DNA of 64,000 bases from Neovahlkampfia damariscottae (lineage: Eukaryota; Heterolobosea; Selenaionea; Neovahlkampfiida; Neovahlkampfiidae). Shown here in pieces: positions 50,744 through 57,963 of this stretch; the stretch's first letter is position 1, and the number at the start of each line of letters is the position of its first letter. Location: the NCBI GenBank assembly GCA_016618085.1, contig JABLTG010000070.1, positions 31,794-95,793 of the forward strand, read 5' to 3'. The translations under genes and the position numbers were made by a program. The notes under the pieces are model-generated. The model saw only the letters and a program-made list of their open reading frames with translations. It was not told the origin of the DNA and did no database searches.

Positions 50744-52198
50744 ATGTACTCCATTGAAGAAGAAGAACAAATTTTTGTTCCAACAGAAATTATATTATTG
50801 ATATTTGAATATTTACCTGATGATTTTTTATTGACAGATTTACAGAATACATCATTAATTTTTGAAATTTTAATAAAACTCAAAAAAAAAAGAAAAATAA
50901 TATTTTGTGAATTCTCCGACTCAACCATTTTTAAATTAACAACAAATTATGAAGACATTTCAGATATTTCAATAATAGGAGATTTTGTTGATTCATCTGA
51001 AACTCATTTAACTCACCGTGGTTTGTATCAATTATTGGAAACAAAAAATTTGAACCGTTTAGAGTTTAGAAATATCTCATTTGGTTTTGAAAGTGTAAAT
51101 TGTTTAAGTTATAAATCTTTGAAAGAATTATCTTTGATTGATTGCAAAATTGATTTTGATGATCCTGTATTTGATCAAGGAGATGAAATTGAATTATTTG
51201 AAACATTGGAAATTCTGGTGTCACCAAATGCAGAAATAGTCAAATATTTTAAAAAATTACGGAAATTGACAGTATATACATCTGATAGAATGGCACCAGA
51301 TCTTTCTCATTTGAAGAATTTGGAAGAATTTACAATCATTGGATTTCAAGGAAATTCAACGCTGAACTTTCGATTTCTGTTGAGTTTAATTCATCAATTG
51401 AATAATTTAACATTTATAAATTGTGCTGTTCCTCTCAGAATAGCGAATTTTGTTTCTGCTGCATTTAGTTTGAAGGAGTTGAATTTTGTTGGAGGAACAA
51501 AAATAGTTGGTGAAAAAAATTATGATGGACTAGATCAATTCTACAAACCCAATGAATTATTTGATTTAATAGATGAAAAGAGTTCAATTGAAATCTTAAG
51601 ATTTCATGGGATTTCTTTTATGACCGAATCAACTTTGAGCAATATGGCCATTTGTTTTCCAAAATTGAAGTTCATTTCTTTGATTAATCAAAACATCAAA
51701 GCCATTTCAAATTTAAAATTTTGTGAAAATGTTGTTGTTAAAGATATAAATTCAACCAATTCATTTCTTTCCTCATTTTCAGGCTCACACAATGAACCTC
51801 AGAAAAAATTGAAAAAGAGTTTCATTTTTTGTAAACACTGTAAAATACTTGTAAATAAAAAACAATACATTAAGCACATAAAAAATCATTGGAACGAAGA
51901 TAATCACTATTATTGCCCGAATTTGGAGTGTAAATTCGAAGGGAAGACATTTTCTGATGTTTCAAAGCATTTGATAAATTGTCAACATTATCGGATTATT
52001 TGCCACGGATGCAAAGAAGAAATAGAATACAGCAATTATAAAAATCATATTTGCAAAGGAAATAATAGTTGTTTTCAAATCAAAAAGGTTAAATTGTCCA
52101 AATTCTACAAAGAAAAAAATGGGAAAATGATTGAGGGAATATATAAACTGTTAGACGTGGAAAATGACACAATTTTGAGATGGAGAAGAAGATATTAA
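50744..52198 (+). CDS. F-box-like / leucine-rich repeat / zinc-finger protein
   Basis: Single exon, 484 residues. Residues ~9-45 (FVPTEIILLIFEYLPDDFLL) have the F-box signature of P-x-E-I-x-x-x-I-F-x-x-L-P. Residues ~60-340 form irregular leucine-rich repeats (LNRLEFRNISFGFESVNC, LSLIDCKIDFDDP, LTFINCAVPLRIA), as in FBXL proteins. A C-terminal Cys/His cluster follows (FCKHCKILVNKKQYIKHIKN, CPNLECKFEG, HLINCQHY, CHGCKEEIEYSNYKNH), which forms three or four zinc fingers of C2H2/TRAF-like spacing. The combination suggests an SCF ubiquitin-ligase substrate adaptor in which the LRR or fingers bind the target. It converges with the G-alpha/F-box gene, 19 bp between stops. The LRR assignment is moderate, the F-box and fingers good. 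Confidence 0.72.
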   Translation: MYSIEEEEQIFVPTEIILLIFEYLPDDFLLTDLQNTSLIFEILIKLKKKRKIIFCEFSDSTIFKLTTNYEDISDISIIGDFVDSSETHLTHRGLYQLLETKNLNRLEFRNISFGFESVNCLSYKSLKELSLIDCKIDFDDPVFDQGDEIELFETLEILVSPNAEIVKYFKKLRKLTVYTSDRMAPDLSHLKNLEEFTIIGFQGNSTLNFRFLLSLIHQLNNLTFINCAVPLRIANFVSAAFSLKELNFVGGTKIVGEKNYDGLDQFYKPNELFDLIDEKSSIEILRFHGISFMTESTLSNMAICFPKLKFISLINQNIKAISNLKFCENVVVKDINSTNSFLSSFSGSHNEPQKKLKKSFIFCKHCKILVNKKQYIKHIKNHWNEDNHYYCPNLECKFEGKTFSDVSKHLINCQHYRIICHGCKEEIEYSNYKNHICKGNNSCFQIKKVKLSKFYKEKNGKMIEGIYKLLDVENDTILRWRRRY

Positions 52199-52217: not shown

Positions 52218-53701
52218 TCATTTTTGTTTTTCAATTTTCTCTTCCTTTTTTGGAAGCATCATATTCAAATGATATTGTTTGATTTTTTCAATCGACAAAA
52301 TATCTTCAATAGTTGAAAGTATAACTTCACTAAATTCATCTCCAATAGCACATGTTTTGTAAGTCTCTCTAATTTTATTATTTGTCACCTCAGAATATTT
52401 CTGCATTAAATATTTTTCAGAATTTTCTACAATATGTTTACATTGAAGATAGTAGGTTTTCCACATGTTAAATATCCTTTCCGATTCAGAATAAACAGAC
52501 TTTACTTTATCAATTCTCAATTCAGGATCATACTTCAAGCATAAATTCATCCAAACATTATTAGAATTGGAAGAACGATGAAACAAGTTACAAACTCTGG
52601 TAATTCTACATAAATCTCCACCTCCGAGATATGAAAATATTTCATATAATTCATCTTCTGATAAATCTGTGACTTTGATTTTGTTTGTTGGTTTTTTAGT
52701 CAATTCAAATGAAATATTTCTTTTGATTTTGAAAGAGGATAATTTTGGACTGTGCAAAAAGAAATTATCTTCATCTCTTTTTAATTCTTTTGGACAATCT
52801 GGAAAGCAACAACTTATATCTTGTTTTTGAATTTCTTCTGCAAAAACGTCTCGTTTATTGAAATATAGATAGAATGGTATATCTGTTATTTCATCCAAAT
52901 GAGTCATTTGATTCACCACTTCCTTTTGATGAAATAAAGATTTTAGTAAATTTAATTGATCTTGAACTTTATTTTCACCTAAAGTTTCATACATTTCTTC
53001 GTTGTATTGTGATAGGGCAGAAACAAAAATGGCAGCAGCTACTGGAACTTCTTTTTCAAATTCAAAATGCCATTTTTTTCTTTCATTTATTTGACCTCCA
53101 GTGTCTACAACAATGAACTCTTGATTTTTATATTTGAAACTGAATTCTGATAAACCTGTAGTTTTTCTGTAGCATCTTAGAATATCCATTTTGGTCATTT
53201 CTTCAAATTCTTGAATATGATTCACTCTTTTAAGCATATAAGAACAGGAATCTCCAAGTAAATGCTCATGATTAGTTTCTAAAATACTCAGGAACTTTTT
53301 GTCCAACATTAATATATTTATTGCGTCTCGAACATCATTGTTCCAATATTTTTGTCCTCCGTTCACATAAAGAGTAGGTATTTCTATTTCATCAATATAA
53401 GATAATATTTCTTCTGTTTTTAAGTCAAATGTAGGTTTAATATTTTTATAAGCTTCATAAGCTTTTTTGAAATGTATTAAAATTTGACTTTTCAAATCTT
53501 CAGTGAATTTTGGATTCTTATCAAAGAGATATTTGAATTGTTTGAAAGTTGTTGATTTTCCTGTTTTTATTAATTTTCTTTTTTTTTTTTACCGACTTCA
53601 CCAGAACCTAACAGAACAATTTTTATCGGATGGTCAACTTTTGTGTTCAAAATTTCTTTTTTTATTTCTTTTGATGTTTTTTTGACATGTTGTTGACCCA
53701 T
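52218..53701 (-). CDS. Heterotrimeric G-protein alpha subunit with an F-box inserted in the GTPase domain
   Basis: Two exons (53701-53593 and 53560-52218; intron 32 nt inside the P-loop codon) give 483 residues. G-alpha motifs in order: MGQ start (possible myristoylation), P-loop LGSGEVGKSTT (32-41), switch I DILRCYRKTTGL, switch II VVDTGGQINERKKW (Gln193 kept), FYLYFNKRDVF (NKxD at 271-274) and TCAIGD (about 439). Between CCFPDC, the normal FPEY position, and YYLQCKHIVENSEKYLMQKY (helix before TCA) sits an extra ~120 residues with an F-box at about 334-376: VTDLSEDELYEIFSYLGG, RITRVCNLF, NVWMNLCLKY. At the arginine-finger position a Tyr is found with Arg one residue later; switch II has Ile for Arg. 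The C-terminus is a Lys/Glu tail, not the usual receptor-binding end. ATTGG is about 25 bp upstream. Confidence 0.85.
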
Positions 53702-56973: not shown

Positions 56974-57963
56974 ATGGAAATGTTTGTTGATGATTCACTT
57001 TTAGAAATTTTTTCTTTTTTAGATTTAACAACTGAATATAACATAAGTTTAGTTTGTAAAAATTGGAAATTACTGTCAGAACATGAAATATTTTGGAAAA
57101 AAAGATTACAAAAAATTTTGTTGCCAAATTCAAAACTAGTTCTGAATTGGAAAAAAGAATACTTTCAAAAGAATTATTTATTAAATGATGATATTGTCAA
57201 ATTGAATTCAAAATATCATTCAAAATTAAGTTCACAAGTTGTTATTTTCGGTGAAGAATTTGAAAATATTTCAGATTATGAACAAAGACGATTTTTTAAT
57301 TTTTCGAAATTTTCAGAGTTTTTATATTCATCTATTGTAATTTTTGGAGAGGGTGGATTCAATATTTTGTACATTATTGAGCACTTTGGAGAGATTTATG
57401 CATTAGATGAAAATTTTGAAGGAATTGAGTTAAAAGATGGAAATTGTGAAAAATTTTCAGAAGAATACAAAAAAATCATTAAAATGGTAGTTTCTGAGAA
57501 TTATTTGTTCTCGGACAAACAGATTAAATCATTGATAACAAATGAACGAGTGTTTAATTTTCATTCAACTATTCATTCCATCTTGTATGAATTATTTTCA
57601 AAAGAATTTACGAATACTGATTCTTTAATACAAATATTAGATTTTTTGGGATTTTTAGCTCATGTTCCTTCAAAACCTAATATTATTTTTGAAGACCAGT
57701 CTTTAAGACAATTGAAGGAAGAATTGAAAGAGAATCATTCATTTGGATATGAAGCTGAACAAAAGTTTGATCCAAATAAAGTAATAAAGAAAGAAAATGA
57801 TGTTTATACCATGAAATTCTTCAGTAGATCTGCGTCACTTAATTTTGGAAACTTTAATTGTTATAATGTGTTGTTTGTTGAATATTTATTCGATTTGGAT
57901 TCAAAAAACTTCACATTAGAAAGAAATGTTTTGATAAAAGATGAAATTGATTTGTCGTTGTAA
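56974..57963 (+). CDS. F-box protein, unknown C-terminal domain
   Basis: Single exon, 329 residues. The N-terminus is a clear F-box: FVDDSLLEIFSFLDLTTEYN then SLVCKNWKLL and EIFWKKRL (about residues 3-50). The remaining 280 residues have no domain I know. They contain VVIFGEEFENISDY, a helical middle and a C-terminal beta-like segment NVLFVEYLFDLDSKNF. It is likely an SCF substrate adaptor with a lineage-specific target-binding part. It is divergent from the nucleotidyltransferase/F-box gene and tandem with the surface-protein gene. Confidence 0.75.
   Translation: MEMFVDDSLLEIFSFLDLTTEYNISLVCKNWKLLSEHEIFWKKRLQKILLPNSKLVLNWKKEYFQKNYLLNDDIVKLNSKYHSKLSSQVVIFGEEFENISDYEQRRFFNFSKFSEFLYSSIVIFGEGGFNILYIIEHFGEIYALDENFEGIELKDGNCEKFSEEYKKIIKMVVSENYLFSDKQIKSLITNERVFNFHSTIHSILYELFSKEFTNTDSLIQILDFLGFLAHVPSKPNIIFEDQSLRQLKEELKENHSFGYEAEQKFDPNKVIKKENDVYTMKFFSRSASLNFGNFNCYNVLFVEYLFDLDSKNFTLERNVLIKDEIDLSL

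Follow-up and report, generated by a model that had tools for sequence, protein, structure and literature searches.

Can a heterotrimeric G-alpha carry its own ubiquitin-ligase adaptor? G-alphas are taken to act via separate effectors (cyclases, phospholipases, RhoGEFs), but one gene in a 64,000-nucleotide stretch of the Neovahlkampfia damariscottae genome (contig JABLTG010000070.1, positions 31,794 to 95,793 of the forward strand; hereafter the window) raises this question. A first-pass annotation, made from the letters of the window, had proposed that the gene encodes a G-alpha with an F-box inside its Ras-like domain, and this is borne out by profiles, by paralogs and relatives in databases, by a tree, and by structure prediction. 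We regard this architecture as near certain. The protein belongs to a small conserved G-alpha family into which the F-box was inserted, most likely once. As to mechanism, it is somewhat probable that the protein is a nucleotide-gated substrate receptor of an SKP1-CUL1-F-box protein (SCF) ubiquitin ligase, similar to Rab40 with CUL5.

An F-box inside the Ras-like domain of a G-alpha

The Pfam G-alpha family (PF00503) matches residues 7–294 of the window protein with 150.1 bits against a cut-off of 48.8 (E = 1.1e-43). Among the best 60 of 340 matches to sequences of solved structures, alpha chains of Go, Gi, and transducin predominate, and the best-matching stretches stop at residues 282–297, where the insert starts. 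The P-loop (GSGEVGKST, residues 32–40) retains its Glu and Lys, and the all-helical domain between alpha1 and switch I is present. Sequence and Go/Gi alignments confirm that the P-loop, switch I/II, NKxD, and TCA motifs follow one another in G-alpha order. By fold and profile, the protein is filed as a G-alpha, one that is catalytically atypical.

The insert occupies the alphaG-alpha4 loop and is 114 residues long, and the distance from NKxD to TCA is 168 residues versus 47–75 in the own-genome matches that span both motifs in one frame. Failure of a profile search to detect an F-box at residues 334–376 had been named beforehand as a refuting outcome; Pfam instead finds F-box-like (PF12937) at 341–379 (30.2 bits, cut-off 24.3) and F-box (PF00646) at 335–373 (24.0 bits, cut-off 20.5). 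At E ≤ 0.01, all seven members of alignment A3 match F-box-like (PF12937) and six of the seven match F-box (PF00646). L336, S337, D339, E340, L341, I344, L348, V359, and W373 form an F-box core that is invariant across A3.

The extra residues had been placed between the FPDC position and the last helix of the G domain. They do lie inside the Ras-like domain, but alpha4, beta6, and alpha5 all follow them. Pieces downstream of the insert score above all 1000 shuffles against a G-alpha alpha4-beta6-alpha5 profile in four of five cases, which excludes an F-box merely appended to a truncated G-alpha; the fifth, from relative P0006 (6.8 bits versus 8.9 for the best shuffle), is not separated from its shuffles. 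Structure prediction had also been proposed as a check. In the AlphaFold2 model the G-alpha fold closes around the poorly modeled insert, with structure alignment reaching model residue 463, while the F-box part is modeled at low confidence only. The F-box piece modeled by itself is helical and, as a low-confidence model, has 14 Foldseek matches, nine of them titled as SKP1/SCF F-box complexes (best E = 0.16), with no match at E ≤ 0.001.

The gene model

The coordinates and the length of the product (Table 1) agree with those first annotated, to which we add the minus strand. The insert and both of its flanks lie within a single open exon (residues 38–483), and a EukProt predicted protein, P0001, is identical to the 483-residue product. 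An assembly chimera, a mis-spliced model, or the joining of unrelated open reading frames would create such a fusion artificially, and an A-rich 32-nt stretch does break the P-loop, so the model hangs on one predicted splice. However, residues 38–483 need no splice, the whole protein is found in EukProt, the fusion is seen again in further databases and on three more contigs, and a paralog on contig C252 has a 42-nt GT-AG stretch in its P-loop, matching the intron of the window gene in position and phase. We reject an artificial origin as having next to no probability. Since 42 is divisible by three, we infer removal of the C252 stretch from homology; the P-loops of the two tandem paralogs described below are uninterrupted at this site. 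A reading of the F-box segment as a retained intron is excluded, as relatives at 36–56% identity preserve both the frame and the F-box residues.

Table 1. Features of the F-box G-alpha gene, in window positions
Feature	Position	Strand	Description	Basis
Gene	52218..53701	-	ATG at 53701, stop at 52218; 483 aa	
Exon 1	53593..53701	-	residues 1–36 plus the first base of codon 37; N-terminal Met-Gly-Gln, alphaN, beta1, P-loop start	translation/splice, identical protein P0001
Intron, 32 nt	53561..53592	-	GT...AG, A-rich; within P-loop codon Gly37	
Exon 2	52218..53560	-	remainder of codon 37 through residue 483, plus the stop codon; uninterrupted reading frame	
G-alpha helical domain	53190..53507	-	about residues 55–160	Pfam G-alpha match 7–294, AlphaFold2 helices
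Switch I, RCYRKTTG	53154..53177	-	residues 165–172; Tyr167 at the site of the Gi catalytic Arg	Go/Gi alignments
Switch II, DTGGQINERKKW	53070..53105	-	residues 189–200; DTGGQ 189–193, catalytic Gln193 retained	
NKRD guanine-specificity motif	52848..52859	-	residues 271–274	
Insert in alphaG-alpha4 loop	52446..52787	-	residues 295–408; linker bearing an SFELxKKP-type motif, F-box, W-K-x-Y stretch after F-box	alignments A2/A3
F-box	52533..52676	-	about residues 332–379	Pfam above curated cut-offs, genome match C275:84326-84442
alpha4, beta6, alpha5	52269..52445	-	residues 409–467; TCA 439–441	profile versus 1000 shuffles, structure alignment to model residue 463
Lys/Glu-rich C-terminal tail	52221..52268	-	residues 468–483	translation

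A family with a probable single insertion

The fusion was sought in other sequences and is present both in database relatives and in three further genes of the same genome. Protein searches, which score only candidates sharing most 5-residue words and may miss distant fused relatives, returned, apart from the protein of the window itself, six related ones: P0002 (87% identity), P0003 (50%), P0004 (56% over 59%), P0005 (43%), P0028 (46% over 49%), and the 790-aa P0006 (33%), whose locus is C48 of the same genome. The precomputed Pfam annotation includes an F-box in all of these except P0006, the second half of which matches F-box-like when scanned. In the own genome (20,439,759 bases in 307 contigs), four genes encode F-box G-alphas: the window gene (C275), C252:168999-170447, and genes on C48 and C113. 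The last two encode tandem proteins in which a degenerate N-terminal GTPase/G-alpha-like domain precedes the F-box G-alpha (L011 49..1552 and L012 2424..3891). The F-box is retained in paralogs at 36–39% identity. Viral and prokaryote collections yielded 54 and 56 pattern stretches, with no relative among them.

We built a FastTree phylogeny of 71 G-alpha rows on the G domain before alpha4, with the insert excluded (283 columns). C275 and C48 of the own genome are represented by P0001 and P0006; P0028 was not entered, and rows covering less than 120 columns (P0004) were left out. The seven F-box members in the tree group together as a single clade (support 1.0). Because this grouping holds for the G domain by itself, one insertion event that preceded the divergence of genes and species is most likely.

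All five complete N-termini (P0001, P0003, P0005, P0006, and C252) begin with MG, which would allow myristoylation at a candidate Gly2 site. At the other end, a Lys/Glu tail had been described in place of the usual C-terminus; this holds for the window protein and its close relative P0002 but not for P0003, which ends NHEIKKF.

A neighboring F-box gene in the window (56974-57960, plus strand; 31.2 bits) has a W-K-x-x-Y-F stretch after its F-box that resembles the one in the insert, and is a possible local donor. The adjoining gene (50744-52195, plus strand) begins with a weak F-box-like match (E = 0.19) and shows, close to its end, a weak zinc-finger-like one (E = 0.17), both below cut-off.

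Loss of the arginine finger

A Tyr at the arginine-finger position, with Arg shifted by one, had been noted in the window protein and is confirmed: Tyr167 is adjoined by Arg168, and Thr170 of switch I is retained. Arg is absent from the finger position in all seven members covering the site (0/7), which have Tyr (the window protein, P0002, P0003, and C252), Leu (P0005), Gln (C113), or Ser (P0006). This observation would suit a G-alpha-like protein frozen in one state, positioning SKP1/SCF at the membrane with no true switch, as would the degenerate N-terminal G domains of the two tandem members and P0005, which has a degenerate switch II (DTGFQYNLTYRF) and breaks off before beta6. P0005 may be a pseudogene or an erroneous model. 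However, the P-loop, the switch-I Thr, DTGGQ, and NKxD are all intact in the window gene, P0003, and C252. Moreover, among the 61 G-alpha-like genes of this genome, a rough count that includes the family and chains exon matches by position, Arg is kept in 36 (three are not covered) and the catalytic Gln in 45. Because Arg loss is thus common among the G-alphas of this genome, it need not end switching, and we consider a frozen scaffold quite improbable.

In Gi/Gs mutants, loss of this Arg strongly slows hydrolysis, while RGS (regulator of G-protein signaling) proteins are still able to act. As the arginine finger is absent, a long-lived GTP state would be expected of the window protein.

A putative nucleotide-gated SCF receptor

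Profile searches of the genome found the components with which such a receptor would work. SKP1 has one match (E = 4e-29; contig C288), cullin has 22 (counted by exon), the best of 25 RBX1-type RING matches has an E value of 1.4e-23, and F-box-like has 96 matches (150 of 161 candidates scored). On the G-protein side, there is one G-gamma gene (8.8e-9), at least 150 RGS domain matches (150 of 421 candidates scored, all matching), and 123 G-alpha matches by exon in 20.4 Mb. The G-alpha search scored 121 of 157 candidates; C11:142087, C93, C37, C284, and eleven weaker places were not taken further. The G-protein set of this genome is, on these counts, very large.

With SKP1, cullin, and RBX1-type genes present and Rab40 as precedent, coupling of the nucleotide switch to SCF would be a sound inference. 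In our favored model, the F-box would dock SKP1-CUL1-RBX1, while the switch surface, the part through which other G-alphas contact their effectors when GTP-bound, would pick the target, so that the GTP-bound protein would bring effectors or regulators to the ligase. As the alphaG-alpha4 loop lies away from the switch regions, the F-box and switch surface could be used simultaneously. The Gly2 N-terminus, possibly myristoylated, may put the ligase at the membrane. Lacking the arginine finger, the protein would hydrolyze GTP slowly by itself, and the ligase-competent state would persist until it is reset, either by an RGS protein or through nucleotide exchange.

Several points weigh against this model. 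The F-box is modeled at low confidence: residues 304–368 have a predicted local distance difference test (pLDDT) score below 50 in the whole-protein AlphaFold2 model, and the piece by itself has a mean pLDDT of 61.6. As P0005 has a broken switch II and an early end, and neither switch-I arginine is present in the tandem members, nucleotide switching may not extend to every member of the family. Some F-box proteins also act outside SCF. This last point, together with the low model confidence, would be consistent with SKP1-independent binding or a role in trafficking; however, the F-box core is invariant across A3 and the genome encodes the SCF components, so an SCF-free function seems very unlikely.

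Alternatively, SKP1 binding could direct SCF to ubiquitylate the G-alpha itself, or its G-beta-gamma or receptor; the F-box would then shorten the signal instead of making the protein a substrate receptor. A study of yeast Gpa1 describes a 109-residue ubiquitination-domain insertion that is required for Gpa1 endocytosis (PMC12483322). The linker of the window protein's insert is, moreover, Lys-rich. However, a degron or ubiquitination site would suffice for this purpose, and retention of the F-box in the diverged paralogs suggests an adaptor. Self-ubiquitylation of F-box proteins can also be a by-product of adaptor function. We judge self-destruction unlikely, and the nucleotide-gated substrate receptor remains our preferred reading.

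F-box/small-GTPase loci in the same genome

Comparison of the 96 F-box matches with 150 of 154 Ras-type matches gave ten pairs within 1.5 kb, all ten on the same strand; in eight, the F-box lies 229–537 bases upstream of the GTPase. Uniform placement would be expected to give about 0.7 pairs on the same strand within 1 kb. In all eight loci that were read (L041 and L085–L091), Rho/Ras-type GTPase segments come after F-box segments, and several of the loci end in CaaX-like boxes. At L041 (C298; 667..2238, minus strand), both occur in one open frame of 523 aa; the seven other loci are candidate fusions. These loci are a kind of F-box-GTPase fusion independent of the F-box G-alphas. We tentatively suggest, as a rather doubtful generalization, that this lineage wires GTPase switches into SCF as a general strategy, comprising the once-formed, receptor-controlled, GTP-gated F-box G-alphas and the separate F-box/Rho-type fusions, with degradation as the output and no second messenger.

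Comparison with known systems

Like Gi/Go, Gq, and AtGPA1 (PF00503), the window protein has the helical domain, P-loop Glu, switch II Gln, NKxD, TCA, and alpha5; unlike them, it has the F-box insert, a Tyr at the arginine finger, and a non-canonical C-terminus. The first-pass annotation knew of no described family of this kind, and we found no F-box G-alpha in the open-licence literature searched, where part of the searching required several terms together. This is a new domain architecture of G-alpha, and it extends the known idea of GTPase-cullin ligase fusions.

The closest relatives of that idea differ in their architecture. RhoBTB proteins have a BTB domain instead of an F-box, appended rather than inserted, and the Gpa1 insertion is in the helical domain rather than in the alphaG-alpha4 loop. 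As proposed for the window protein, RhoBTB ties a GTPase to a cullin adaptor role, as the atypical Rho GTPase Rhobtb3 is named among cullin-3 adaptors (PMC7672578). Gpa1 is likewise a G-alpha with a ubiquitin-linked insertion, but one that is described as a ubiquitination domain, not an adaptor module, and is said to be absent outside fungi (PMC12483322). Rab40 is reported to ubiquitinate its effectors with Cullin5 and, like the window protein, combines a GTPase and a cullin-RING adaptor motif within one protein; it is, however, a Rab that recruits CUL5 and Elongin B/C by way of a SOCS box at its C-terminus (PMC10509765), so its adaptor is neither an F-box nor inserted in the G domain. The window protein has no SOCS match among the ten families listed by Pfam, with Ras at E = 0.1 only, below cut-off. 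Naegleria fowleri is also a protist with many G-alphas and RGS proteins, reported as 13 G-alphas, some of them self-activating, 28 seven-transmembrane (7TM)-RGS proteins, and 79 other RGS proteins; the main text of that study makes no use of the word F-box (PMC9283941).

The alphaG-alpha4 loop is thus able to host a whole domain. A G-alpha with its own ubiquitin-ligase adaptor would, if our model is correct, be a one-protein path from receptor to protein destruction, and, together with Rab40 and RhoBTB, would indicate that GTPases have joined cullin-RING ligases several times independently, through CUL5, CUL3, and now SKP1-CUL1.
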